DNA from: an uncultured Clostridia bacterium
Lineage (GTDB): Bacteria; Bacillota; Clostridia; Oscillospirales; Ruminococcaceae
Direction of reading: 5' to 3'
Assembly (NCBI GenBank): GCA_945829235.1
Contig: CALZUA010000021.1
Coordinates: 1-55,852, forward strand
DNA: 55,852 nt
Within the stretch, counting starts at the first letter, position 1. Each line of letters starts with the position of its first letter. Shown in pieces: positions 40,534 through 55,852 of the stretch. Both the position numbers and the translations under genes were made by a program. The notes below the pieces were generated by a model. That model saw nothing but the letters and a program-made list of their open reading frames with translations. It had not been told where the DNA came from and searched no databases.

Positions 40534-43518
40534 TTAATAGCTCAAATTACTGCGCGTGAAATATGCCTCAACGCCGTCCGAAATTGCTTCGGCGAGCAAA
40601 ACCTGATTGTCGGGATTTGCCAAAATCAGGCACTCGCGGTCGTTTGAAACAAAGCCCATTTCCAGAAGAATACACGGGAAGCCTTGCTCGCGAGTATAGC
40701 TCCAGTAGCTGTACTTGTCGCCGCGCAAGCTGTCCGTCCCATCGCCGTATATTCGGTCAAGGCAAGCCGCAACGTTCTCCGCAACTGCCTCAGCAAGCGG
40801 CTGTGACCACGGCGTGAAATAATACGCTTCCGTGCCGTGCGCGTCGGGACCCGCGGCGTTGCTATGCAACTCGATAAACAAATCCGCGTTGTAATAGGTT
40901 GCCGCACGCGGTCGCTCGCGGTTTGTTCGTCCAACCTCTTCGTTGTTCAAGCGGATAACCGTTGCCCCGCGCGACTGCAATTCCTCAACAATCATGTCGG
41001 CAACCGCGTAGTTTATCTCCGCTTCGGTTACCTGTCCGATTGCGCCCGTGTCCCATTTTCCCTCGTCATTCATACCGTGACCGGGGCTTATCACAATCGT
41101 TTTGCCCGAGAGCGTTGGCGTCGGTACCGGGAACATAAGTTGGAGATTTCTCTCCTCATCGTAGGTTGCCGTAACTCCGCTGTAAATGCCCGGCTGTCTT
41201 AACGTCAGCTTCATTCGGAATTTCGGTATTCCGTCCTGCTCAACGTGTTCCCACTCGCCTGCGCTGAACAGAGCGCAGTTCAAAAAGCTCGGGAGCGCGG
41301 TTACAGAGGTCACGTTGTCGAAGGTTATATAAATGTACTGCGCGTTAAAATTCGTCACACCAAACGGCCCGTCATAGCCCTCCACAAAGTCCTGCGAGGT
41401 GGTTATGTTGAAGCTTGTCCGATAGTCAAGAGAAAGCGTGATGAAGCTCCGTCCGCCCACGTTTCCGACAGCCTTTACATAAAGCGCGTTATAACCAAGT
41501 CCCGTGTCGTCAAACAGCGTGACGTAATCCTCGCGGTAACGCTTGCCCGAGGTTGTTATAACATAGCCGTCCGAGGAGGTTTTGTAGTAATCAATAGTGT
41601 TCGCGGGCATCTGCGAAAACTCCGGTGTCGGAATACGTCCCGTTGTTTCCGCGTCAAGAACATCGGTGTTGTTGCCGAGAACCTTGACGTAGGTCACAAT
41701 TTCGCCCGGCACATCGTCGATTATCGGGTCAATTCGTCCGACAATTTCACCTGTTCCCGCAGTAGACTGGTCGGGGATAATATCAACCTTGATGTCCTCC
41801 TTCGGCGGTTTTGGCTCGGGGAGCGCCTCAACCGTTATCGAGCCGCCTGTCATATATTTCTCGAAGCCCATGTAGTTGCCGTAGAAGCTGATGTTGCCGA
41901 GATTTTGCGTTTGCCCGACAATTCCCTTCGGTGCCGTGTAATAACCCAAAAACTCCGAGTAGGACGAGTCCTCGCCTATCTGTTCACCCGAGGCGATTTC
42001 CTTGAGGTTGACAATCTGCCCGTTTATAGACGCGGATACCGCCGAGCCGCTGTACGCAATCGCACCTATCGCAATTTTCGTGCCTCCCGCAACCGTGATG
42101 TTGTTCACGTTTTCAACCGACTTGAGCACCTCAACCCTACGCTCGATGTAATAATTGATTTTCTTGCCCTTGTGCTCGATTGTAAAACTGTTTCCGCCGA
42201 CATTCAGGTCTTTGGTGATGAGGAAGTTTCCGCGCTCGTTCAGCTCGATTTTTCTTCCATCAAAGTACACGTCAAAGTTCTCGTCAAACGTTCCCATAAA
42301 CTTTACGGTCGGGTCGTAGGTGACGAAGCTCGTGTACTGCGGCGTGACCATTTCAAGTCCCTCGAAAAGCGTTTCGGTGTTGATTTGGTCGGCAAAGTAT
42401 TTTTTGAGAGTATCCGCGGTATTGAGTATGTTTTCGCGAAGCGACTCATACGAATGGAACGCACTTCCGCCGATGTTCTTGAAATTCTCGTCCATAATTG
42501 TGAGCTGTCGAAGAAGCTGGTCCTCGTTCCAGCCGCTTCTGTTTCCTATTCGCTCGTTCAAGTGGCAAACGTAGCACTTCGCGCCGCTTTTCTCGGCAAG
42601 CTCGTACCACCACCCTACAACCTTCTCGAAATTGAGCGCGATATCCTCGGTTGAACCGTACGCTTTCAGCATAATAAAGTCCGCAAGCCCGCTCTCAATA
42701 TAGCTTTTCGTGTCGCAAAAGCCGTCAAAATACGCCTGCTTTGTGTCCGCGGTGTCCGAGCCGCCGTCCTTTGCCGAAGCGTTCGCCCACATATCCTCCA
42801 TAAGAATGCCGACAGCGGTTGTGTTGGAGGTCTTGCGGATTGCTTCGCTCACCGTGCGGATTATGTAACGGTTGGTTTCGTAGAGCCAGTTCTGGTAGCC
42901 GATGCCCGAACCCGAGCGCAGATACTCCGCGTACATTTCGGGTGTGTTCTCGGTGTAATAGTTGACGAGAATTATGCCCTCGCAGTTGTATTTCATCGCG
43001 AATTTGTGTACCGCCGCAGTAAAGCCCTCTTTCAGCCCGCCGCCGCTTTCCAGCACCTTTTTCACAAGCGAGTTTACGTCAAGCGTGAGGTACGCGCAAA
43101 GATTTGCCCCGTGCGAAGCGTCCAGCATCTTGTTCAGAACACAGTCGGTTTTGTCCAACTCAAAATCGTAAAAATCCTCATTTTCACCCGTGGAATTTAT
43201 GACAACCGCGTTCATTCCCAAGCCGATTATCTCCATACTGAGCGCGTTTAAATCGGTGTCTGCGGCGAAATCAACGTTCGGTGTAACAAAAACCGCGCGC
43301 ATATCTTTTTGCAGATAAATTTTGCTCTCGACTTGAAAGGGAGCGGTCTGCGGAGCTTCCGCACCGCCCGTTTGTGTTGTTCCCGAAGTATCCGTTGTTT
43401 CAGCAGTATCGGCAGTTCCCACGGTATCTTCGCTTGTTTCGGCAAAAGCTGTTATTGTTGACGAAAAAACCGAAATGCACAAAATCGCCGAAATTATTCC
43501 CCGTAATAGCTTTTTCAT
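40534..43518 (-). CDS. Secreted glycosidase-like protein fused to N-acetylmuramoyl-L-alanine amidase
   Basis: 994 residues, ATG with GGGGAAAAGTT. Signal peptide (ISAILCISVFSSTITAFAE), Thr/Ala linker, then a TIM-barrel-like domain at about 70-380 of the GHL10/DUF4015 type (DMRAVFVTPNVDFAA, LGMNAVVIN, GIILVNYY, ADFIMLKAYG). Beta-rich domains follow (about 400-560 and 620-780). The last 190 residues are an Amidase_3 zinc hydrolase: VISPGHGMNDEGKWDTGAIG, LFIELHSNA, ILLEMGFVSN. The amidase cuts the MurNAc-L-Ala bond of peptidoglycan. It sits next to a second GHL10-like gene in the same direction, so a cell-wall task such as septation or spore-cortex work is likely. Domain borders approximate. Confidence 0.88.
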   Translation of the reverse strand: MKKLLRGIISAILCISVFSSTITAFAETSEDTVGTADTAETTDTSGTTQTGGAEAPQTAPFQVESKIYLQKDMRAVFVTPNVDFAADTDLNALSMEIIGLGMNAVVINSTGENEDFYDFELDKTDCVLNKMLDASHGANLCAYLTLDVNSLVKKVLESGGGLKEGFTAAVHKFAMKYNCEGIILVNYYTENTPEMYAEYLRSGSGIGYQNWLYETNRYIIRTVSEAIRKTSNTTAVGILMEDMWANASAKDGGSDTADTKQAYFDGFCDTKSYIESGLADFIMLKAYGSTEDIALNFEKVVGWWYELAEKSGAKCYVCHLNERIGNRSGWNEDQLLRQLTIMDENFKNIGGSAFHSYESLRENILNTADTLKKYFADQINTETLFEGLEMVTPQYTSFVTYDPTVKFMGTFDENFDVYFDGRKIELNERGNFLITKDLNVGGNSFTIEHKGKKINYYIERRVEVLKSVENVNNITVAGGTKIAIGAIAYSGSAVSASINGQIVNLKEIASGEQIGEDSSYSEFLGYYTAPKGIVGQTQNLGNISFYGNYMGFEKYMTGGSITVEALPEPKPPKEDIKVDIIPDQSTAGTGEIVGRIDPIIDDVPGEIVTYVKVLGNNTDVLDAETTGRIPTPEFSQMPANTIDYYKTSSDGYVITTSGKRYREDYVTLFDDTGLGYNALYVKAVGNVGGRSFITLSLDYRTSFNITTSQDFVEGYDGPFGVTNFNAQYIYITFDNVTSVTALPSFLNCALFSAGEWEHVEQDGIPKFRMKLTLRQPGIYSGVTATYDEERNLQLMFPVPTPTLSGKTIVISPGHGMNDEGKWDTGAIGQVTEAEINYAVADMIVEELQSRGATVIRLNNEEVGRTNRERPRAATYYNADLFIELHSNAAGPDAHGTEAYYFTPWSQPLAEAVAENVAACLDRIYGDGTDSLRGDKYSYWSYTREQGFPCILLEMGFVSNDRECLILANPDNQVLLAEAISDGVEAYFTRSNLSY

Positions 43519-43561
43519 AACTTTTCCCCGTTTGTTTTCACGTTTTATCTTTGATTTATCC

Positions 43562-45097
43562 TCAATTCATCGCGGCTTTCAGAGCCTCAATTTCGCGGTC
43601 AACCTGACTTTGCACGGAATAATCCGCGTTGAAAACCGCGCCGTAGCTGTAAATTCCTATTCCCCCGTAGGCGGACAGCTCGCGCGATACCAAAAACTGC
43701 CGTTTCAGGATATCCTCGTCGGTTATCCACTCCCTGTTTCCGTCACCCGCCCACTTGTCCTCAAGACCGAGCTTTGCCGAGGTTATCCCGACAATCAGCG
43801 GGATATTTCCCGAATACGCGAGGTTGTTCCAAGTGTTTACGCACTCCTCAAACGGCTCGGCGGAGTTCTTGAAACCATAGTAAATCTGCGGCATTATGTA
43901 GTCGATATAGCCGCTTTCGGTACACCATTTTTTGACATCAATGTACATATAATTGTAGTTGTTGTACATACTGCCCTGACAGCTAACTCCGAAAATTGCC
44001 GAGCTGTTGCCGCGCTTCACCGCATTGTAGAGCGAAGAAACCAGCTTGTCGCAGTTCGCGAGCCTGAACTCCGAGAGTGACGACAAGCCGCTCTGCGAGA
44101 AAGCCGCACTGTCGAAATAGGTGTCGGTTGTGGGATAGAAATAGTCGTCGATGTGAACACCGTCTACGTCGTAATTTGCGGTAATTTCACGCGCACCGTC
44201 CGCGATTAGCTCGACAACCTCGCTGTACGCGGGATTTAAATAGTAATAGCTCCCGACCTGAACCAGCCGCGTTTCGCCGCCAGCCCAGTTGTACATCGGG
44301 TAACCGCTTTCGCGCTCGATATCCGATACCGCGCACCCACGAAGCGGGTTTATCCACGCTTGGAACGACAATCCGCGCGCGTGCGCTTCCTCAATCATAA
44401 CATCAAGCGGGTCATAGTAACCGCCGAGATATTTGGTTCTCGGGAAGAAATCCGAGCTGTAATACGCGTCACCGTGCGAGCGGACGTGAACGTATACCGT
44501 GTTAATTCCGAGAGATTTGCAGTTGTCATAAATGTACGAAATTCCGCTTCGGAAAGCGCTTTCCGAGCCGCTCGAAATTCCCGCGAGGTCTATGTACGAA
44601 ATCCACATTCCTTTAACCTCGCTGTAATTCAGCGCGCGGTAGTTGTTCACGCCAAAATCAGCCGGAGGAAGCGGCTGTTCCGATGATGACGATGATGACG
44701 AGCAACTTGTTTGAGATGAAGACGATGAGCTTTCAATTGAAGATATTATTGATGAAGAGCTTGAAGAAGAGTCCGAGTCGCTTTCCAAAACGCTTTCCGA
44801 AACGCTTCCCGCGGCGGAATAGCTTGACGTTTCAGAAATCTGAGTTTTTCCGCCCTCCGAAGAGCTTGGATAAACCGATGAACTTGCGGAACTTGATGAA
44901 GAATCTCCCGATGAGCTTCCTGCGGACGAATTGACGGAATAAGAGGTGCTCGAGCCGTAGGAAATCACGCCCTCGGACGAGCCGAGCGATACTCCCCCCG
45001 CGTCAATTACACTCACGGTTTCCTTCTTTTCCTGTGCCTTGCACCCGCAAAGTCCCAGTGCCGCCGCCGCTATCAAAGCAATTATTTTATTTTTCAT
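43562..45097 (-). CDS. GHL10/DUF187-type glycoside-hydrolase-like lipoprotein
   Basis: 511 residues. Lipoprotein signal ending LGLCGC (Cys19), a Ser-rich linker of about 120 residues, then a TIM-barrel domain from about 160: YSEVKGMWISYIDLAG, LGINTVYVHVRSHGDAYY, LSFQAWINPLRG, DVDGVHIDDYFYP, YIDYIMPQIYYGF. These are the hallmark segments of GHL10 proteins, thought to act on peptidoglycan-related glycans. Surface-anchored. Likely co-transcribed with the downstream amidase fusion (43 bp apart). Confidence 0.9.
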   Translation of the reverse strand: MKNKIIALIAAAALGLCGCKAQEKKETVSVIDAGGVSLGSSEGVISYGSSTSYSVNSSAGSSSGDSSSSSASSSVYPSSSEGGKTQISETSSYSAAGSVSESVLESDSDSSSSSSSIISSIESSSSSSQTSCSSSSSSSEQPLPPADFGVNNYRALNYSEVKGMWISYIDLAGISSGSESAFRSGISYIYDNCKSLGINTVYVHVRSHGDAYYSSDFFPRTKYLGGYYDPLDVMIEEAHARGLSFQAWINPLRGCAVSDIERESGYPMYNWAGGETRLVQVGSYYYLNPAYSEVVELIADGAREITANYDVDGVHIDDYFYPTTDTYFDSAAFSQSGLSSLSEFRLANCDKLVSSLYNAVKRGNSSAIFGVSCQGSMYNNYNYMYIDVKKWCTESGYIDYIMPQIYYGFKNSAEPFEECVNTWNNLAYSGNIPLIVGITSAKLGLEDKWAGDGNREWITDEDILKRQFLVSRELSAYGGIGIYSYGAVFNADYSVQSQVDREIEALKAAMN

Positions 45098-45272: not shown

Positions 45273-45731
45273 TTACTCTTCCATTTGTTTGCCGAAATAC
45301 ATCGCGGCGGCTTGCACCAGCGCGGACTGCTCAGCGGTAGCGGCGTCCTTTTCGTTGTCGCCGGCAAGCATTATCACAGCGCCGTTGACATCGCCCGATG
45401 CCAAAATCGGCGAGCACACAAGCGCATAGCGGTCAACGCCCTCAATCGGGTTCAAGCGCTTATCATCGCTGTTTTTGAGAACGTAACTCTTGCGTTGCTC
45501 AATCAAATCCTCAAGCGAACCCGAAACGCGCCGCTCGATTATCTCCTTCTTGGACATTCCCGATACCGCAATAACGTGGTCGCGGTCGCAAATCACCGCG
45601 GGACACCCGCCAACCTTTGACAAAACGTCCGCATACTGCGAAGCGGTACTGCTGATTTCACCCACGGGCGAGTACTTTTTGAAGATAACCTCACCCTCGG
45701 GGCTAGTGTATATTTCAAGGGGGTCGCCCTC
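45273..45731 (-). pseudogene. spoVT: spoVT, 3' part only
   Basis: 152 codons equal to about residues 27-178 of SpoVT, the AbrB-like regulator of late forespore genes. The remaining part includes the second half of the AbrB swapped hairpin (EGDPLEIYTSPEGEVIFKKYSP) and the whole GAF-like domain (CPAVICDRDHVIAVSGMSKKE, SPILASGDVNGAVIMLAGD). The first 25-30 codons, with the start and the conserved VIPKEIRR strand, are missing from the window. If the element excises, they would rejoin at this point. Confidence 0.88.
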
Positions 45732-47432
45732 GCTGAAAACATTGACACGGATAACCTTGTCCTTTCTGCAAGGACTTTTTTGGGTGACCGTTTTTGAGAT
45801 ATTAACCGTGTCACAATTAAAATTTGCGGTAAGCCCTTTCTGCGGCTCAAGACGAAGCAGAGCGTCAATATTCGATTTCAGCTTTATCTCAACCTTGTCC
45901 TCGAAAACTAAAATCTTTTCGATTATCACTTCAAGGTCGGCACGAGTAAGAGTATCCTTTTCGATTATATCGTTGAAGATATCTATCGCGGTTTTAGCTG
46001 TTCGATTGACCCGCACAACCGCGCTCTGCTTTTCCGCCACAATCCCAATTTGGCTTTCAAGGGAGTCGATTTGCTTTGCAAGGTCATCAATCATTTCGCC
46101 GTAGGTTTCATCATAGAGAGCCTCGTTTTCAGGATTTCGGGCTATCTCCTTTATCTTCTGCCGCGCGAGCAGTTTAATCTCGGATTTCGCGTCCTCTATT
46201 CTGTCACGCAGTATCTCAACGGTTGATTTCGTCTGACTTGTTTCAACCTTTTCTTCCCTGAGCGCCTCATCAAGCTTTGCAATCATCTCCTGCGAGTTGT
46301 CGCGCACCATTCTGATGTACGCTTTCAGCGCTTCATCAAGCACGGCGCATTTAGTGTGGTGAGAAGTACAGCCCTGCAAGCCGCGCCTGTGGTAGCTTCC
46401 GCAGGTATAAGCGGGATCTCGCTTGGGGTTGCTGATAGAGAACATCGGCGCACCGCAGTCTCCGCAGAAGATAAACCCGGAATAGACATTGTCGTATTTC
46501 TTCACGCCGCGGTAGTGCCCCTCGGTGCGGCTTTCAAGCTGCTTCTGTACACTGCTGAACAGCCTGTAATCCACAATTGCTTCATGATGATTTTCAAAAA
46601 CGATATGCTCACTTTCGTCTGTCTTGAAATCCGCTCCGTTTATCTTGCGCCGCTTGTATTTTGCCTGTCGGAAGGTGCCTATATAGAAATCGTTGCGCAG
46701 TATCTCCGAAATTGTTATTATGCTCCACTCAGATTTGGCACGGCACTTAACCTCCTCACCCTCCGCTATTCGACGCTGTTCCTCGTGCATTCGCGGTGTA
46801 GGAATATTGCTGTCGGTGAGGTAGTTCGCTATTTTGCGGTAGCCGTTACCCTCTGAATACATTCGGAATATCTTGCGTACAACCTCGGCACACTCCTCCT
46901 CAACCTCAATGGTCGGGTTCTTGCCGCTCGTCATTCTGTAACCGTATGGCACAGCGCACAGCCACTTCCCTTCCTGTTGGCGGTTTTTAATAACGCTCTT
47001 GACCTTTTTGCTGGCGTCCGTGACAGGCATTTCGTTGATGAGAAAGCGGAACTGTATCTGCACCCACTCGTCGCAGGTCGGATAATCGATGCCATCGCCG
47101 ATTGCGATAATCCGCACACCTCTGTCACGCAAATCCTCCAGCTCCACAAGACCCTTGCTGTTACGGCGGGAAAAACGGCTGAAATCCTTAACCACAAGTA
47201 TCTGATGTTCGCCGCGAATGAGCTTTCGGCGCATTATCTGATAGAACTCGCGCTGGTCAAATGTGTAGCCCGAACGGTCTCTGTCCGCATAAAATGTAAG
47301 CTCCGCATCGGGGAACTTAGTCCGCACATAATCCTCAATTATAGCTTTCTGGTTCTCAATCGAAGTATTATCCCTGTCAAGCTCCTCATCTACCGAAATT
47401 CGGCAGTAGCCTGCAATACTAATTCTTTCCAA
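45273..47432 (-). CDS. Large serine recombinase fused in frame to the SpoVT C-terminal part
   Basis: 719 residues from TTG 47432 (GAAAGGATTTGATACA). Resolvase domain 1-150 with catalytic Ser in AGYCRISVDEE, EDRDRSG-like YADRDRSGY and VVKDFSRFSRR; recombinase domain about 165-275 (GYRMTSGKNPTIEVEEECAEVV, ILRNDFYIG); zinc ribbon CGDCGAPMFS...YTCGSYHRRGLQGC; coiled coil about 385-470; beta-rich end DKVEIKLKSNIDALLRLEP. At residue 568 (DNA 45731) it passes without stop into SpoVT sequence (EGDPLEIYTSPEGEVIFKKYSP) and continues to the SpoVT C-terminus (FGKQMEE). Free recombinases of this type end near residue 540-560. The simplest reading: the element's attachment site is the recombinase 3' end and integration into spoVT made the fusion. 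Whether the fused protein is active is unknown. Confidence 0.92.
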   Translation of the reverse strand: MERISIAGYCRISVDEELDRDNTSIENQKAIIEDYVRTKFPDAELTFYADRDRSGYTFDQREFYQIMRRKLIRGEHQILVVKDFSRFSRRNSKGLVELEDLRDRGVRIIAIGDGIDYPTCDEWVQIQFRFLINEMPVTDASKKVKSVIKNRQQEGKWLCAVPYGYRMTSGKNPTIEVEEECAEVVRKIFRMYSEGNGYRKIANYLTDSNIPTPRMHEEQRRIAEGEEVKCRAKSEWSIITISEILRNDFYIGTFRQAKYKRRKINGADFKTDESEHIVFENHHEAIVDYRLFSSVQKQLESRTEGHYRGVKKYDNVYSGFIFCGDCGAPMFSISNPKRDPAYTCGSYHRRGLQGCTSHHTKCAVLDEALKAYIRMVRDNSQEMIAKLDEALREEKVETSQTKSTVEILRDRIEDAKSEIKLLARQKIKEIARNPENEALYDETYGEMIDDLAKQIDSLESQIGIVAEKQSAVVRVNRTAKTAIDIFNDIIEKDTLTRADLEVIIEKILVFEDKVEIKLKSNIDALLRLEPQKGLTANFNCDTVNISKTVTQKSPCRKDKVIRVNVFSEGDPLEIYTSPEGEVIFKKYSPVGEISSTASQYADVLSKVGGCPAVICDRDHVIAVSGMSKKEIIERRVSGSLEDLIEQRKSYVLKNSDDKRLNPIEGVDRYALVCSPILASGDVNGAVIMLAGDNEKDAATAEQSALVQAAAMYFGKQMEE
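45721..45745. other. Probable attachment junction in spoVT
   Basis: The homology to SpoVT begins at GAGGGCGAC (45731) on the minus strand, just after the recombinase-specific VIRVNVFS. Large serine recombinases cross over at a 2-bp core inside such a point; the exact core cannot be fixed without the other junction. Confidence 0.6.
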
Positions 47433-47542
47433 TGTATCAAATCCTTTCGGAATAATTATATACAATATTGTACCACAAAAAATAAAGAAATGCAAGTGTC
47501 TGCGATAAAATCAGAGCGACCCGTATAGAGCCGCTCTGTATC

Positions 47543-47803
47543 TTATGCCGGTTCGGGCGTGTGTCCCGACATCATTTCCGCCTTGACCTCCTGTTCCGCC
47601 ATCTTCATACGATTCGTTTTCAAGAGGTACAGCGTCGGTTCAAATAAGTCCTCAGAACCGGATTTCATTATTATCAGCTTGTATTTCTTCTGTCGGAGCG
47701 GCGCAATTTCGCGCTCCAGCTCGTCCGGGATAGGTCGGTCGGATTCCTGCGTGGACTTCCAGACCAGTATCAGCTTCTTGTCGTGATAAATGTCCGCTCT
47801 CAA
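47543..47803 (-). CDS. Small protein of unknown function beside the recombinase
   Basis: 86 residues from TTG 47803, chosen because AAAGGAGGTGTCACT precedes it (an ATG 13 codons upstream spans the ribosome site). MRADIYHDKKLILVWKS, then DELEREIAPLRQKKYKLIIMKSG and EPTLYLLKTNRM. No motif recognised. It may be a recombination directionality factor by position, but nothing in the sequence proves it. Confidence 0.55.
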   Translation of the reverse strand: MRADIYHDKKLILVWKSTQESDRPIPDELEREIAPLRQKKYKLIIMKSGSEDLFEPTLYLLKTNRMKMAEQEVKAEMMSGHTPEPA

Positions 47804-47899
47804 AGTGACACCTCCTTTCGTTTCAAACAATATGATTTCCACCCGCTTGGCAATTTATTCCTTATAATAATATATCACCGAGCAAACGGACTTTTCCTG

Positions 47900-50311
47900 T
47901 CAATTCTGCTTGGGGACAATTATCTTTACAGGATAGTCGATACGGCATTTATCAGTGCTTATACTGCCCTTTACCACACATTCGCCCCTGTCAAGCGAGT
48001 TAAGGAGCTCTCTCAATTCCGTATTGGCAGAGCTTGAGTCCAGTTGTTTGAGCGCGTCCACGGTCTTGACGGGTTTGAATACAACCTTCGTCCGGCAAAG
48101 CGACTGCATTTTCACAGCGTCTGTGCCATTACCCTGACTGAGATACTGCGTGGAAAGAAACGCCATAATACCATGTTTCGCGCCCTGACGCAGCACTTTC
48201 ATAAGCGGAGATTTGCTGTTCATTGAAAACTCCTGACATTCGTCGAGAATTAGGATACAAGGCGTTTTGTCGTCAAGCCTGACCTTGTTAGCGAAAAATT
48301 CTGCGAGAGCGTTGTCGGCGCTTTCCTCGTATTCCACATCTATTATTGATATTCCATTGTTAGAAAACACCTCTTTCCAATCCATTCGTTTGACTTCGCC
48401 GCCGACTATTGAAAGCGAGTAGGACCGCGGTTCATTCCTGAGTTCGTCAGAGTATTTGTAAACGCTTATTTTATCACCGGAAAGCGATATCCTGCTTTCA
48501 GCCGAACCGATATTTACAACCTTAATTCCGGCGCTCACCGCCTGCCGTGCGATATTTTCCAGAAATGTACTTTTGCCCGTTCGTGTGTTACCCGTTATCA
48601 TCACATGACAGTTTTCCGAACCATCAAGCGCATCGATAGCAAAGTACACAGAAGTTGCATTGCTTTCGCCGATTTTCAGCATCAGCTGCGGCTTGGCTCC
48701 GTGAAAGCCGTTAAATTCAAACCGAATATCACCCGCCCGAAAGATATCGCTCTGCCTTAGAGTGTACATTCTTATCACCTTCTCGTTAATATTTACCGCT
48801 TTTTGAAATCCGCTTTCAGCTATAAGCAGTTTTTTGCTCTTAAGTATGTCGAATAGCTGTTTAGTCATTATTTTAAGCTGTCCCGAAATGTGCTGCATTG
48901 TCGAGCGGGTTAAATGAACATAATCGCCGTTTACAAGCAGCTGATTTTCGCTTTCGTTGAAATTATCCTTTGTCACAACTTGGAAATCCCTCACAGTACA
49001 CAAATAATTTATGAAAGCGGCAGAGGCATCGATTGTGCTGCCATCGAATATTCCGAAAACGAAATCCACAAGTTCGTTCATAAGCTTAGTGCGCCATGTT
49101 TCGTCAAGGATTTGCAGATATGACTCCGACATTGCCATAAGCAGCGCCGCTGTATTTGCAACGCTTGATTTTGCCACATCTCGGTATTTCTCCGAATATT
49201 TCCGATAACGGTTCATAAGCTCGGTCATAAAGTCCACATTATCAAGAGCTTTTACTACAAACCAGTTCCGCAAAGGGGCATATTCTTTCAGCCGGAACTC
49301 GTCGCACTCAAAGCACAAGAAACGTTCAGACAAATCATCGGAGTGGTTGCTAAAATTCTTTTCGGTAATGTAAATCGAAAATCCGTCGGGTGAATTATTC
49401 GGCTGTGTCGTCATTTTCTTTTTAAGATACGGTGAAAAAGTGTCTATCATAATAACCGGGCACTTTTCCGCGCTGTAATTGCTGTCATTGGTCTGTATAT
49501 CAACGATATCCGGCATAAGGTGTTCCAATAAAACAGCTGTTTCCGATGCATCGTTTACATGAATACAAACACTTGAAAGATTCGTTAAGCCATAGAGCTT
49601 TAACATTTGCATGAAGTCAGCCGCCAAAAGCGTTGAACCCAACAAAACAGCCTGACAGTTCGTAGTTTTACCGTACCTGATACCAAGGCACCTCGACAGT
49701 TTCGCCGAATTAAAGCCGCTCTCGAAACCGTTCCTGAATTCACACTCTTTGTCTGTAAGCAGCTTGCCGTACTCGTTTAGCCACCAGCCGAGCATTTTTG
49801 TCGTGGGAGTTAGTTCGGCTATTTTTGGAATAGCGTCCCTCAGCCAGATATCAAGATACTTTTTATTGATAAATATCCCAACTTTTTGAAGATTTTTCTG
49901 TAGAATTGAGCTGTAGCAGAAAACTTCCTCACATATTGAGATGGACGTTTTGTCTTGAGAGGGCGTTTTAACTTCCAAATTGATAAACTTATTTTTGGAG
50001 CTGGGCAGTTCTCCGTAATGAAGTCTATATTCGTAGCTACCAATCTCGAAAGTGCCTTTGCAAGCAAATCTTAACGAGGTGCCGTAGTTGTGAATCTTCT
50101 GCCGATCCGTTCCTGATGAGAAGAACATATCATGATATTTATCCGTGTCGGTTTCCGTGTAAAATTGCCTTGATTTCTTATATATCATTGCATTGCTCTC
50201 TTTGTTTGCCTCAACGACCTCGTAAACTCCGGATAAAGATTTTACTGTCTTGTCAGATCTGGTGTTACGGTTTGTATTCATTACATCGTTCCGCATTAAA
50301 AAATCGTTCAT
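47900..50311 (-). CDS. HerA/VirB4-like ATPase of the right element
   Basis: 803 residues from MNDFLMRNDVMNTNR (GGGAGGAAAAAAC). The N-terminal 540 residues match no family I recognise. The C-terminal P-loop domain has Walker A GNTRTGKST (574-582), Walker B CILILDECQEF (Asp-Glu at 690-691) and the FTSK/HerA-like LRQGAKHGIMAFLSTQYLSQG sensor region. This combination is typical of DNA-pumping or secretion ATPases (HerA-FtsK-VirB4 clade). It could move DNA for transfer or packaging, or act in defence. Transcribed away from the 633-residue gene, with a shared spacer of 150 bp. Confidence 0.75.
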   Translation of the reverse strand: MNDFLMRNDVMNTNRNTRSDKTVKSLSGVYEVVEANKESNAMIYKKSRQFYTETDTDKYHDMFFSSGTDRQKIHNYGTSLRFACKGTFEIGSYEYRLHYGELPSSKNKFINLEVKTPSQDKTSISICEEVFCYSSILQKNLQKVGIFINKKYLDIWLRDAIPKIAELTPTTKMLGWWLNEYGKLLTDKECEFRNGFESGFNSAKLSRCLGIRYGKTTNCQAVLLGSTLLAADFMQMLKLYGLTNLSSVCIHVNDASETAVLLEHLMPDIVDIQTNDSNYSAEKCPVIMIDTFSPYLKKKMTTQPNNSPDGFSIYITEKNFSNHSDDLSERFLCFECDEFRLKEYAPLRNWFVVKALDNVDFMTELMNRYRKYSEKYRDVAKSSVANTAALLMAMSESYLQILDETWRTKLMNELVDFVFGIFDGSTIDASAAFINYLCTVRDFQVVTKDNFNESENQLLVNGDYVHLTRSTMQHISGQLKIMTKQLFDILKSKKLLIAESGFQKAVNINEKVIRMYTLRQSDIFRAGDIRFEFNGFHGAKPQLMLKIGESNATSVYFAIDALDGSENCHVMITGNTRTGKSTFLENIARQAVSAGIKVVNIGSAESRISLSGDKISVYKYSDELRNEPRSYSLSIVGGEVKRMDWKEVFSNNGISIIDVEYEESADNALAEFFANKVRLDDKTPCILILDECQEFSMNSKSPLMKVLRQGAKHGIMAFLSTQYLSQGNGTDAVKMQSLCRTKVVFKPVKTVDALKQLDSSSANTELRELLNSLDRGECVVKGSISTDKCRIDYPVKIIVPKQN

Positions 50312-50462: not shown

Positions 50463-52364
50463 ATGAAATATTGTGAAAAAGCAAAACTGGATGACACTTA
50501 CAGACGGATTCTTGAGTCGTTAAATTTCGCCGGCATTGGCTCTGAGTATTTAGGCATGTACCACTATACCATTCTCAAATGCATCAATCAAACATACAAG
50601 CTTGCTTGTGGCATTAAGCTTGATTCATGTTGCTTTGACCACTGTTCACTAAAAAATCGAACTCCCTTTTATGAAATAAGAAAAATTTTGTACTCCAAAA
50701 AGATAAATATAGATGAATTCATTAATTGTGCTATATTGCCATTTCTTCCGCCAAATAGTTTTGAAGTACCTTCTCAAAATAATGTAGTAGTATACAGTTC
50801 ACTTACAGCATGTTACTTGATAACTGCCACAGTTGTGTCTTTTCTATTAGATGAAGGCAAGATTGACAAGAATAACGATGGGAATACTGTGGTTTATCTA
50901 CCGATTGAACAGGATTGTACTTTGGGGTATTTTATAGGTCGCTATATTGAACATCAAGTTCTTCATCCTGAAACTACCGCTGAGTATAATGACAGAGAGA
51001 ATGCTAAGAAAGAATATTACTACAATATTTCGAAAATCAATCAGAGCGAAGATACCGATTCGATGTTTCAAAGTGAAATATATTCTCACAGCAAGAAAAT
51101 CAACGACAATATGAGGGATATTCTGAAACGACATTTAATGCTGGGCGAAAGCGAAGATTTTTCTGCGTACACCTATAATGATATTGTCCTTATGCTTTAC
51201 AAGTTAGAATCGGAAAACACAAGAGTACACAAGGTTGTTGAATCTCCGAGTTCAGAAACAATGCCTTTCCTTGGCTATTCAGCACTTAGGCAAAAGACAG
51301 CTCAAATATCCGGTGATATTTTTGAGCACCTGCCTACGAAAATAATTTATGAAATTAACAGCAATTGTTCACAGACATATTTTGAAGTCAATGAGATTAT
51401 AAGACAGATATATCTTTTTGCAGAGGCTTTATATTTTGGAAACAAACAAGAATATTTTGAGGAGTTTATTGAGCTACTTCGTTCGAACATCTCAAGCATC
51501 ACCATTGATTCAATTCCTACACTTATTGAATCTTTCACAGGGGTAATTACCGAGCCTCAAAACCCATTTGAGGAGTTGATCAACTGCACTTCTCTGCTCA
51601 AGCTGGCATCATTTGTCAAAGAAACAAGAGCTATATTACATTATATAATAGAAAACTCCAGCACTTTTACGACAAATGTACCGATAATTCACGACAAATA
51701 CTATATAGGAAAAATATTTCCTATGATTATTCAAGAAAGCAAACAATACTTGCATTCTATGATGAAAACCATTGATTATGAAATGACAACGCTTGGCATT
51801 CCCGAAAATGTTGAGGAACAAAAAAACTATATAGATAGTGTATATAGAATTTACAAAAATCTCTGGGGACCGGTAATTGATGCACCTTTAATCGATCACA
51901 TGGCATGCACTCAGATTATAAAATCAATTAAGGACAAGAGATTTAAAAATTTCAACTGTCTGAATTTCTATGGCCGCAGGACAAGAAAAGACGGCATATT
52001 CAGGGCACAGTATAACCGGGAATCGCAGAATACCCAAACTTTGTCATCTATGATAAGTCATGACAAGTTCACAACAGAAGACTGTATGTTAATTATGAGC
52101 CTTATTGACACACAGAAATACTGTTTTTTCAACATTGATATTTTTTCTGTCTACAAAGAGATTCTTAAAGTATTAGATGTCCTTGACTACGTTCTTACAG
52201 CAGATAATCTTGACTATGCAAAATCTCCTTTCAGGCATCTGAGAGCAGGCGAAGCTGTGTTAAACGAGTGGGGAAAGGTAATTCCTGGCCTTGCTGACTA
52301 TTTCAATAACACACTGAAAATACCGGTTACCGGAATGGAGGAACTTGAAAAATTGCGCTTTTGA
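50463..52364 (+). CDS. Large protein of unknown family
   Basis: 633 residues, ATG behind TTCAGGAGGACATTT. No signal peptide; one hydrophobic stretch (SLTACYLITATVVSFLL, about 112-130) could be a buried helix. A Cys/His cluster lies at 48-62 (CGIKLDSCCFDHC). Otherwise it is helical and rich in Ile/Tyr/Asn. Base composition is much more A+T-rich than that of its neighbours, pointing to a different origin. It is divergently paired with the HerA-like ATPase and followed by the structured RNA and the primase-helicase. I cannot assign a function; a transfer, scaffold or abortive-infection role would all fit. Confidence 0.75.
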   Translation: MKYCEKAKLDDTYRRILESLNFAGIGSEYLGMYHYTILKCINQTYKLACGIKLDSCCFDHCSLKNRTPFYEIRKILYSKKINIDEFINCAILPFLPPNSFEVPSQNNVVVYSSLTACYLITATVVSFLLDEGKIDKNNDGNTVVYLPIEQDCTLGYFIGRYIEHQVLHPETTAEYNDRENAKKEYYYNISKINQSEDTDSMFQSEIYSHSKKINDNMRDILKRHLMLGESEDFSAYTYNDIVLMLYKLESENTRVHKVVESPSSETMPFLGYSALRQKTAQISGDIFEHLPTKIIYEINSNCSQTYFEVNEIIRQIYLFAEALYFGNKQEYFEEFIELLRSNISSITIDSIPTLIESFTGVITEPQNPFEELINCTSLLKLASFVKETRAILHYIIENSSTFTTNVPIIHDKYYIGKIFPMIIQESKQYLHSMMKTIDYEMTTLGIPENVEEQKNYIDSVYRIYKNLWGPVIDAPLIDHMACTQIIKSIKDKRFKNFNCLNFYGRRTRKDGIFRAQYNRESQNTQTLSSMISHDKFTTEDCMLIMSLIDTQKYCFFNIDIFSVYKEILKVLDVLDYVLTADNLDYAKSPFRHLRAGEAVLNEWGKVIPGLADYFNNTLKIPVTGMEELEKLRF

Positions 52365-52792: not shown

Positions 52793-52809
52793 CAATGGAG
52801 GAGAAAACC

Positions 52810-55425
52810 ATGATTAAACTATGTATCAGCAACATCTGCCTGAAAAATACCCCTAAATCAGAAATCAACATTAGTGCTGTGGCAAAGGACATCGCCAAGC
52901 ATCGGGAAACAGTGAGCGTACACGAATTGGGTGAAATTATATCGGAAGGATACACTTTCTGTCCCTGCACATTTACCCAGCCCAGAAAAAAGAAGGAATT
53001 TATTGAACAAATGCAGCTTTTCGTCCTTGATTTTGACGGACCTGCCGGCACTCACGAATCGTGCCCGCTAAAAATCAACGACGCCCTGATAAGAGCGAAG
53101 AAATACAACCTGCCTGTTGTCATTGCCTATGAAACCAAATCATCTGTCGATTACGGACGGTACAGACTTATTTTCAAGTACAACGAGCCGGTTTTCGACA
53201 AAAGAATGATGGAGGTAATCAACAGGCTTTTGCTTTGCGTTTTTCCCGAGGCGGACCAATCCACCAAAGACCTCTCTAAAATGTACTTTCCCGGAAAAAA
53301 TGTAAAATATTTTTGCGATGACGCTTTCTATATAGATTCTCTTGCAATAGCCGCCGAAGCTGTCGAAAAAGAATTATTCGCAAACTCATGGAATTATAAG
53401 ATAAATACAATTATTGACAAAACGGGAATTGTCACAAAGGGGCAGAATATTCTTATTGACTTTGATTTAGAAAACGAAAATGTTGACGCATACGAGGTTC
53501 AGACCTTTTCACCATACGAATTTTCTCTGGAAAACAGCCCCGGCACACAATTAAATAATAGAATATCGGGGCTGAAAAAAAGAGAAAAGCCGTGTGTGTT
53601 TTTCGCCAAAACGAAAATCAGCCTCAAGAAATCACATCTCAAAGGAAATCCAAACTATACCCATATAATTAAATTCGACAGCTATACCACCGAATCCTGC
53701 AAACTGCTGAACGAATTTGTTTCCGGATACAGAAAGCTAGAGCACAGCGAATGGATTGGCGTTATGTCAAACCTTATTCATATTGAGGGCGGGCAAACAC
53801 AGTTTCTGAATACCATTGGCAAATACGGCGGCCTCTATGATAACCCCGATGTAAGAGAACAGCAGATGCGCTTTTTTATAAACCAAGGCTATAACCCGTT
53901 TCGATGCGAAAACTATTGCCCTTACGCAGAAATTTGCAAGCACGAAAAAAATATGATATCCACTTTGAAGAAGAATAAGCATAGCATGAAAAAGCTGCCG
54001 GGAGAACCGACATACAGTGACATTTCCGATGTCAGAAATGAGCTTTATTCAGAAATACAAAATGCCGCTCAAAAGGCAAACACTTTCAGTGTGATAAAGA
54101 CGCAGACCGGCATCGGAAAGACTTTGGCTGCGCTTAACTTTATGCTTTCCTCACCAAGGCGGGTTATTATTGCATTTCCAACACTTGACCTTATGCACGA
54201 GATATTTGAGCGGGCTGTTAGTATGGGAATTGAGGCAATGTGTACAAGCTCCATATACGATATTTACGGCTTATTAAGCCGGAATGAACGCGAAGAAATA
54301 GAGCGGTATTATACATACGGCGCTGCGATGATACCTATAAGACTGCTTGAAAAATACAGCAAATCCAACGCTTATATCGCCAACCATCTGAAACAAAACA
54401 AGCTTATTCAGAATTTTCAAGGACACATTTTTACAACTCACGCAAAACTTTTGACGATGGGTTCAATTATTTCATCAGATGATATTGTCATAATAGATGA
54501 GGATATAACCCGTCAGATGATTCAAATCAACAGCATTTCCGAAAAAGACCTTATTTCTATGATGAATTTTGCTGAACGTACAGGGAAATACAGTATTTCA
54601 TCTAAATTCAATGATTTGATTAGAAAAGCAAAGGGCAATACTTCTATAGCGCACTTCCCTTCTTTGATTATGGAATATGAAGAACAGAATAGTTTGATTG
54701 AAGATATAAAGCGAAATAACCTGACTTTTAACAGCTGTATTATTGGGGCAATCTCGGCTCAAAACTTTTACTATGACAGTTATAGCTCGAATTTCTTTTT
54801 CTCGCTGCGAAAATTTCTTCCATACTCCGGCACTTATATAATGCTTTCCGCAACTGCCAATAAAGAGATTTGCAGCAAGCTCTACGGAAATATGAGTTTT
54901 TATTTTCACGAATGTGCCAAGGTGAAATACAAAGGAAAAATCAATCTTTTCGCCGACAAGACATACAGCAGAACTTGTCTTAAAAACGAACCGGAGCTTG
55001 TTGATAAAATTGTCGAAAACCACCCTGGGAACTGCTTTATCTCGTTTATGAACGAAATGCACAAAATACCTGTTCCCGATGATAACAAGCTGTATTACGG
55101 GAAAGCTCTTGGGACAAATTCTTTTTCAGGCAAGGATATTGCAATTATTGGTACACCTCACGTTCCCGAGTATGTATATAAGCTATACGCCGCCGAGCTA
55201 TGCCATGAAACAAACTCCTCACTTGCTGTACGAAAGACGAAATACTCAAACTTTGAATTTGAGTTAATGACATTTGACGAGCCTTTTCTCAAAGAAATTC
55301 AAGCATATATTATTTCAGCCGAATTGGAGCAGGCTGTCGGCAGAGCAAGGCTTATCAGCAACGACTGCACCGTTTCCGTTTACAGTTCTTTTCCCGTGGA
55401 ACAGGCGGAAATTGTGGCGAGCTGA
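52810..55425 (+). CDS. Primase-like/SF2 helicase fusion, element replication protein
   Basis: 871 residues from MIKLCISNICLKN (GGAGGAGAAAACC). Residues about 60-190 look like an archaeo-eukaryotic primase/PrimPol core: FVLDFDGPAG (Asp74, Asp76), VIAYETKSSVDYGRYRLIF, then TKDLSKMYFPGKN. A Cys cluster (Cys366, Cys370, Cys376) follows. From about 425 it is an SF2 helicase: Walker A TQTGIGKTLAA (431-440), DEAD-type box IIDEDI, motif III MLSATAN and motif VI QAVGRARL near the end. Such fusions start and unwind replication of plasmids, phages and integrated elements. It suggests the right element replicates after excision. The primase assignment is by motif only. Confidence 0.78.
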   Translation: MIKLCISNICLKNTPKSEINISAVAKDIAKHRETVSVHELGEIISEGYTFCPCTFTQPRKKKEFIEQMQLFVLDFDGPAGTHESCPLKINDALIRAKKYNLPVVIAYETKSSVDYGRYRLIFKYNEPVFDKRMMEVINRLLLCVFPEADQSTKDLSKMYFPGKNVKYFCDDAFYIDSLAIAAEAVEKELFANSWNYKINTIIDKTGIVTKGQNILIDFDLENENVDAYEVQTFSPYEFSLENSPGTQLNNRISGLKKREKPCVFFAKTKISLKKSHLKGNPNYTHIIKFDSYTTESCKLLNEFVSGYRKLEHSEWIGVMSNLIHIEGGQTQFLNTIGKYGGLYDNPDVREQQMRFFINQGYNPFRCENYCPYAEICKHEKNMISTLKKNKHSMKKLPGEPTYSDISDVRNELYSEIQNAAQKANTFSVIKTQTGIGKTLAALNFMLSSPRRVIIAFPTLDLMHEIFERAVSMGIEAMCTSSIYDIYGLLSRNEREEIERYYTYGAAMIPIRLLEKYSKSNAYIANHLKQNKLIQNFQGHIFTTHAKLLTMGSIISSDDIVIIDEDITRQMIQINSISEKDLISMMNFAERTGKYSISSKFNDLIRKAKGNTSIAHFPSLIMEYEEQNSLIEDIKRNNLTFNSCIIGAISAQNFYYDSYSSNFFFSLRKFLPYSGTYIMLSATANKEICSKLYGNMSFYFHECAKVKYKGKINLFADKTYSRTCLKNEPELVDKIVENHPGNCFISFMNEMHKIPVPDDNKLYYGKALGTNSFSGKDIAIIGTPHVPEYVYKLYAAELCHETNSSLAVRKTKYSNFEFELMTFDEPFLKEIQAYIISAELEQAVGRARLISNDCTVSVYSSFPVEQAEIVAS

Positions 55426-55559: not shown

Positions 55560-55847
55560 ATGTTTCAAAACCAGCGCTACGCCACAAGCGGCATCAACAG
55601 CGAGCTCCCGTTGATGACGCAAATTATTCTCTGGGGGCTTATAGACACAATGGAGGTAACCGAGAAAGACTACCTCCAAGTTTTTTGCCTTTCTGTTGAA
55701 GGCGGGAAACAGCGGATAATTCACGAGCAAGAACAGCCCGAGTACCGCAAGGAATACCTGTTCCCGAGCAAAAACCCCGTTACCGCAAAAGTGTACGTTA
55801 TCGACGACGAAACGCACTCGACAATGCTGCTTGCCGAGGAATATTGA
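55560..55847 (+). CDS. DUF960 family protein
   Basis: 95 residues, ATG behind TTGAGGAGGTAAACA. MFQNQRYATSGINSELPLM, LWGLIDTMEVTEKDYLQVF and EQEQPEYRKEY are the DUF960 signatures; small proteins of this family travel with plasmids, phages and ICEs. Function unknown. A further GAGGAGG at the window end indicates another gene right after it. Confidence 0.85.
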   Translation: MFQNQRYATSGINSELPLMTQIILWGLIDTMEVTEKDYLQVFCLSVEGGKQRIIHEQEQPEYRKEYLFPSKNPVTAKVYVIDDETHSTMLLAEEY

Positions 55848-55852
55848 GGAGG

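Follow-up and report, generated by a model that had tools for sequence, protein, structure and literature searches.

Elements carrying a large serine recombinase integrate into the sporulation gene spoVT of gut Clostridia

Codons 31–32 of the sporulation gene spoVT are very probably (at a rough probability of 0.92) the attachment site of a family of large serine recombinase (LSR) elements, at least some of which are integrative mobilizable elements. The window, the 55,852-nucleotide stretch analysed here, is the whole of contig C21 (ending at 55852) of a 3.23-Mb draft genome in 52 contigs (G000), and it contains an LSR that reads in frame into SpoVT codons 31–181 (45273–47432, minus strand). 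Integration into spoVT is solid. The site, both junctions, the symmetry of attP, the exact restoration of spoVT in silico, the repeated, independent insertions in different hosts and the mobilization and restriction genes of several elements are all read from sequence.

The proposed course of events is as follows. Integration at the GA dinucleotide within GGCGACCC would split spoVT; the 5′ half, comprising the promoter and codons 1–33, would acquire the native tail of the recombinase, giving mostly an open reading frame of ~60 codons, and the recombinase would lose its tail and stop and read into the C-terminal half (C-half) of the host SpoVT. The reverse reaction would rebuild spoVT exactly and return the tail to the recombinase. 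Excision presumably occurs, driven by a recombination directionality factor (RDF), perhaps the product of a small upstream gene, and working SpoVT would be missing while the element is in place.

The fused frame and the target codon

A minus-strand frame of 719 codons runs without a break through 45276–47432, with its stop at 45273–45275. The recombinase, or integrase (45729–47432, minus strand), begins with TTG and reaches no stop of its own before spoVT; by its matches to the Pfam families Resolvase (residues 6–157), Recombinase (180–302) and Zn_ribbon_recom (317–374), it has the predicted resolvase, recombinase and zinc-ribbon domains of an LSR. The remainder of the frame is the 3′ half of spoVT (codons 31–181; 45276–45728, minus strand). 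SpoVT_C (PF15714) matches residues 592–718 (E 3.3e-36), TIGR02851 profile positions 24–180 match from residue 563 on, and the B. subtilis SpoVT structure 2w1t aligns with the C-terminal 175 residues (E 1.5e-28). The TIGR02851 score of 134.9 bits lies below the curated cut-off of 235.9, as the fusion holds only part of SpoVT; the cut-off is passed by none of the 43 genomes of the genus, including 33 with a full-length spoVT match. Over 152 residues, the SpoVT half shares 98% identity with its intact counterpart in G031, a genome of the same genus.

The exchange core GGCGAC (45723–45728, minus strand) is common to the window junction and to the 5′ pieces described below on contig C25, and the sequence shared by both junctions includes codon 31 (GGC) of spoVT. 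The exchange point is most likely the GA of codon 32 (45724–45725, minus strand), which would leave 151 SpoVT codons in the fusion. On the element side, the left attP arm (attL; 45729–45746, minus strand) encodes the recombinase C-terminus VNVFSE. The first-pass annotation, which described a recombinase without its own stop running in frame to the end of spoVT, is confirmed by the unbroken frame and the profile and structure matches; its position for the site was near, and its count of 152 codons with a site at about codon 27–30 needs only the trivial correction to 151 codons and codon 32.

The 5′ half in the source genome

A SpoVT profile search of all contigs of the source genome found no complete spoVT. 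The matches comprise the fused C-half, two 5′ pieces (profile positions 1–33), both on contig C25, and, apart from these, one small AbrB protein. Both 5′ pieces, A and B, hold the promoter and codons 1–33 and leave SpoVT at the core of the window, GGCGACCC. In piece B (C25:5902–6000; L012/L013 pair) SpoVT codons 1–33 are followed by an intact tail, and in piece A (C25:26514–26612; same pair) the tail is frameshifted. SpoVT is joined to none of the genome's six further recombinase matches. No single contig spans the element, which continues past the end of C21 and, should piece B be its partner, past that of C25. A 5′ piece had been predicted to the right of the window; it exists in the same genome, on another contig. 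With a matching far junction and no complete second spoVT found in the source genome, the earlier placement of the integration site inside a sporulation gene stands.

Comparison with uninterrupted genomes, also proposed at the outset, is possible within the genus. A full-length spoVT match is present in 33 of its 43 genomes and a fused C-half in six (G000, G008, G015, G021, G022 and G024); the fused C-halves of G021 and G022 are cut by a contig end, and G022 holds both full-length and fused forms. In G031, the two genes that follow the intact spoVT, at +606 and +2204, are the two host genes downstream of the window fusion, in the same order (40534–45097, minus strand; 78% and 74% identity).

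In several genomes (G000, G008, G435, G445, G453 and G459) the unit of spoVT promoter, 5′ codons and tail is present two or three times, and the core or tail of some copies is decayed; simple attL × attR recombination does not account for the duplication. Between the two 5′ pieces of G000 lies a block of genes (C25:11771–15023; sugar metabolism, judged by eye), and a matching block directly precedes a 5′ piece in G023 C215, indicating that the upstream flank of spoVT has been rearranged. In G025 (L076), spoVT faces the opposite way with respect to the pair of genes found after it in other relatives.

The same fusion in other hosts

The recombinase part alone was used to query a collection of 84,980 species genomes, and the best 80 of 307 relatives were kept. 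Among these best 80, 72 are fused in frame to SpoVT at the same codon (DPLEIY/F), two of the 72 open frames being cut by a contig end. The hosts include Ruminococcus, Anaerotruncus, Lachnospiraceae and others; among the carriers are R. flavefaciens ATCC 19208, 007c, FD-1 and YRD2003, R. bicirculans 80/3, R. albus KH2T6, Anaerotruncus massiliensis AT3 and Eubacterium sp. MSJ-21. In three further loci (L142, L148 and L157) a frameshift before SpoVT_C separates the two halves, and in L160 the contig ends at the core, so that the same spoVT codon is used in 76 of 80 loci. A multi-target LSR of the TndX/TnpX type was considered and rejected on this use of one codon. In L153 the recombinase is apparently joined at the core, as judged by eye, to an inverted 5′ piece, which in its genome (G177) lies on the opposite strand directly after the recombinase. 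L165, in which the recombinase ends in a tail and stop with an intact spoVT 2.9 kb away, shows what we take to be the tail form of the recombinase in nature. In L102 and L117, the DNA retrieved shows no spoVT.

Within the source organism's family, 26 of 396 genomes, from 20 of 126 genera, encode a recombinase closely related to that of the window (E ≤ 1e-100). In a separate draw of 148 family genomes at least 90% complete, hand counts gave an in-frame fusion of 718–792 codons in 10, the window's own included, and a single SpoVT match starting by profile position 10 and ending at 175 or later in 115.

Contigs end at the recombination core in G023 C215 (L059), L160 and L257. Such breaks can result when an assembler meets split and joined forms side by side, and they are a weak hint of mixed populations.

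Both junctions and the reconstructed attachment sites

SpoVT pieces were searched in 28 genomes chosen by hand from the 80 loci. Twenty-seven have a fused C-half and yielded no complete spoVT, G443 being the one genome with an intact gene; a further C-half of G456, where a contig ends, is likewise joined to recombinase sequence. The far junction, carrying the 5′ half, was found in 24 of the 27 fused genomes and not in G442, G451 and G456. A fusion fixed in many genomes without any far junction, which the first-pass annotation had named as evidence against an element, is thus not the pattern seen. Thirteen of the 24 5′ pieces lie on the same contig and strand as the C-half and in the right order, about 11–57 kb off, including those of A. 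massiliensis AT3 (a single 3.03-Mb contig) and of R. bicirculans 80/3 (chromosome II); one of the others is in reversed order (G448), one is inverted (G457) and nine are on other contigs. The reversed order or inverted halves in G448, G457 and L153 (G177) are possible rearrangements by the recombinase.

Thirty-one junction pairs from 26 genomes (G444 not included) were joined in silico. The outer halves yield an uninterrupted SpoVT of 179–184 residues in all 31 pairs, in the source genome the full 181-residue protein. The joined element halves approximate the inverted repeat GTCAATGTTATCAGTnnn GGCGACCC nnnCTGATAACATTGAC, which in the source genome is centred on GA. In 30 of the 31 pairs the repeat is best centred on one common dinucleotide, which is GA, or GC in one decayed piece of G453; the exception is G455, where the recombinase codons just before the core are lost. 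The same-contig 5′ piece of G453 has a decayed core. In the 30 pairs, 15–22 of 25 positions match between the arms of the joined element halves, against 7–13 of 25 in the joined spoVT site at the same position. Serine integrases are expected to use a symmetric attP and a less symmetric attB, like the difference found here, and the reconstructed attP, with symmetric arms about a central dinucleotide and a distinct attB, looks like that of an LSR.

In 30 of 31 pairs, the recombinase ends (VNVIS and similar) within the left attP arm, and its tail, now behind SpoVT codons 1–33, is encoded by the right half; most 5′ pieces are frames of 56–68 codons, and three are of 90. The predicted attP lies inside the 3′ coding end of the LSR gene, so that integration swaps the LSR tail (about 25 residues) for the C-half of the host SpoVT. 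The heptamer AACATTG, which matches an attP half-arm, is also found near the start of the recombinase gene: 35 of 77 loci have it in the 120 bases before the recombinase match, a count that has no control set. Autoregulation is possible.

Repeated independent insertion

Across carriers, the two parts of the frame have different histories: the recombinase moves between hosts, and the SpoVT half is that of each host. In 127 of 2485 carrier pairs, recombinases more than 80% identical are joined to SpoVT halves less than 72% identical. Among the 23 pairs with a synonymous divergence of the recombinase below 0.35, the SpoVT half is the more diverged in 22, and more than doubly so in 19; between L094 and L100 the values are 0.05 for the recombinase and 0.68 for the SpoVT half. 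Such a jump in synonymous divergence at the core indicates that the hosts were hit separately.

Genes of the elements

The part of the element visible in the window extends from 45725 to the contig end. Upstream of the recombinase, a sigma-A-like promoter (TTGCAT-17-TACAAT; 47467–47495, minus strand) was read from the sequence and the alignment of relatives; of 77 relatives, 67 have the pattern TTG-N19..21-T(A/G)nAAT in the 200 bases before the recombinase, where resampled sequence gives 5.0. Just upstream lies a small gene of 99 residues (47543–47842, minus strand), which by its position is a candidate RDF gene. A profile of 11 homologues, which share seven invariant positions, detects this gene on the recombinase strand within 2 kb upstream in 59 of the 71 relatives that have at least 700 bases there; the predicted fold gave no informative match.

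Further along are a weakly TraG/HerA-like ATPase (47900–50311, minus strand; AAA_10 E 2.4e-5 and TrwB_AAD_bind E 4.5e-4, both under the curated cut-off), a gene with no Pfam or PADLOC match and no assigned family (50463–52364, plus strand), a DEAD-box helicase-like protein (52795–55425, plus strand; PF00270 E 4.9e-7) and, at the contig end, a DUF960 gene (55560–55847, plus strand; PF06124 E 1.9e-30). The helicase-like protein is 79% identical over 876 residues to one on C37 of the spoVT-split genome G021, and the DUF960 gene is 78% identical to that of G021 C37 and 71% to that of G007 C7. If piece B is the partner, the other side of the element holds a DUF5986 gene, a helix-turn-helix/IrrE-type gene, a gene without a Pfam match and, at the contig end, transposase-like fragments, judged by eye.

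No relaxase was seen in the part of the element visible in the window. Relaxase or Mob genes occur in the elements of three genomes (G433, which is A. massiliensis, G434 and G453), R. albus being among them. The 14-kb A. massiliensis element carries a type I restriction system, a GmrSD-type protein and a MobA/VirD2 relaxase, and that of G021 a type III restriction system; such elements look like mobilizable, defence-bearing islands. In G008, the nine proteins scanned between the junctions mostly resemble ordinary metabolism and signalling proteins, a point against the element reading.

Does spoVT come back?

Four other explanations and one more ambitious proposal bear on what the split means for the host. 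According to the first, to which we give slightly less than even odds, these are plain mobile elements for which spoVT is a permissive target, sporulation having been lost or reduced during residence and excision not being regulated. The signs of lateral spread, that is the mismatch of the two halves in identity and in synonymous divergence, fit such a history. Several carriers, R. albus, R. flavefaciens and R. bicirculans, are not known as spore formers, which also favours it, as does the listing of Ruminococcus albus 7 in a table within a section on non-sporogenous strains (PMC3533761, excerpt). Retention of SpoIVA, which is above the cut-off in 24 of 24 genomes tested and thus in all 22 split-spoVT carriers among them, speaks against it. 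So does the complete spoVT found beside element remains in G007 (C7:174145–193767), G077 (C27, L261), G181 (C6, L262 and L263) and L165 (11500–15300), accompanied in G007 and G077 by a 5′-tail copy upstream of the complete gene; this suggests that regaining the gene has been selected for, at loci that seem to have kept part of the island.

The second explanation, which we regard as plausible without expecting it to prevail, is a skin-like, developmentally regulated element, whose excision is triggered by sporulation and rebuilds spoVT. The exact restoration in silico and the SpoIVA retention are in its favour, and most split 5′ halves look cared for. A forespore-type motif, G(A/C/T)AT(A/G)-N14..18-(A/G)nA(A/C/T)A(A/C/T)T(A/G), modelled on the sigma F/G consensus, occurs within 130 bases upstream of 31 of 34 5′ pieces (300 resamplings gave 0.97 on average and 5 at most) and in 6 of 7 intact relatives. 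The motif was defined after inspection of the sequences, the 34 pieces include duplicate and decayed ones, and neither G433 (A. massiliensis) nor G457 has it, nor does the G007 5′ piece, all of which weakens the argument. The pooled pN/pS of the 5′ codons is 0.074, a value to be read with pS near saturation and non-independent pairs. Since insertions are repeated and often recent, the conservation of the halves may pre-date insertion. The search for the excision product returned no joined attP in 62 genomes or in IMG/VR, with a pattern that matched only 10 of the 31 reconstructed attP sites. Separately, TGTCGAA, resembling a Spo0A box, recurs at about −100 of spoVT promoters in the source organism's own genus and is absent from 29 of 29 5′ pieces of other carriers.

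The sigma-A-like promoter of the recombinase is compatible with regulated excision, as that of CD1231 in the C. difficile element skinCd is of this kind, with control exerted through an RDF (PMC5025042, excerpt). The cell in which SpoVT acts is a difficulty for it. In C. difficile, SpoVT is a forespore regulator and is required for mature spores (PMC3789822, excerpt), so the gene would need to be rebuilt either ahead of septation or within the forespore, and the spore would inherit the excised state. The forespore-type promoter kept by most split 5′ halves points the same way. Excision during sporulation would then be an event of the germ line, which, if excision is real, would set the spoVT case apart from skin.

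A more elaborate proposal, which we consider unlikely, makes the spoVT elements a reversible germ-line sporulation switch. Integration would block the forespore programme and convert the recombinase from the tail form, which integrates, into a SpoVT-C form with another activity; excision in the predivisional cell or forespore would restore SpoVT, and the element would have to reintegrate at outgrowth.

Quite improbable, in our judgement, is selection of the fusion itself as a protein of two domains, with recombination under the control of a signal sensed by the GAF-like one. In its favour, the frame is open in 72 of 80 loci (two cut by a contig end), and in 30 of 31 pairs the attP arm codes for recombinase; a single common attachment-site frame, however, would give an open frame everywhere, and in L142, L148 and L157 a frameshift parts the halves. 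The SpoVT half, moreover, follows the host and not the recombinase, the fusion being remade at each insertion, which weakens the first-pass suggestion that a fused GAF-like domain might feed a signal into recombination. An assembly artefact or pseudogene, to which a 52-contig draft genome and the decay of some extra 5′ pieces might point, is negligible, an artefact being ruled out for the family by the same junction in isolates, in the complete chromosome II of R. bicirculans and in the single 3.03-Mb contig of A. massiliensis.

Significance and comparison with known systems

Many gut Ruminococcus and relatives retain sporulation genes yet are not known as spore formers. Attachment of LSR elements within spoVT, splitting the gene repeatedly (10 of 148 family genomes), offers a testable reason for some of this non-sporulation, and such an element is a possible on–off switch. 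The predicted attP and attB sites from 26 genomes, together with their recombinases, would be useful as site-specific tools. The rewriting by integration of the recombinase's own C-terminus would be an unusual arrangement, one that bears on the control of directionality.

Among the open-licence PubMed Central papers listed by literature searches, none describes an element in spoVT in its title or the opening of its abstract. A large LSR survey names neither spoVT nor AbrB in its main text (PMC10083194), and its supplementary table may include such recombinases. Insertion in the coding sequence of a sporulation gene with both junctions present, as is usual for intervening elements, is found here, the junctions of the source genome being on different contigs.

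The closest parallel is skin in sigK (B. subtilis SpoIVCA; C. difficile CD1231 with the RDF CD1234), likewise an LSR element inside a sporulation regulator gene with junctions that rebuild the gene (PMC5025042, excerpt). Yet sigK is a mother-cell gene and skin is excised in the mother cell, whereas spoVT is a forespore gene, and the analogy does not transfer directly. The recombinase of the spoVT elements, unlike that of skin, reads into the host gene; the hosts are many gut Clostridia, and excision is here a prediction. SPbeta in spsM, vfbin in spoVFB, gin in gerE and yin in yabG also interrupt a sporulation gene and carry their recombinase in the element. Besides yabG, the yin paper names sigK, spsM, spoVFB and gerE, and spoVT is not named in the excerpt (PMC10747680); an attP within the recombinase gene, a feature of the spoVT elements, is unmentioned there for SPbeta, vfbin, gin or yin (PMC10747680).

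With relaxase or Mob genes in three of them and restriction systems in several, the spoVT elements resemble integrative mobilizable elements with serine recombinases, from which they differ in targeting spoVT and in having reconstitution of the host gene as a possible outcome. The integration-dependent mycobacteriophage BPs provides another parallel, with its attP inside a coding frame and integration altering the C-terminus of an element protein (PMC4557955, excerpt). In BPs, however, integration shortens the repressor (PMC4557955, excerpt), whereas in the spoVT elements it is the recombinase itself that gains a host domain.
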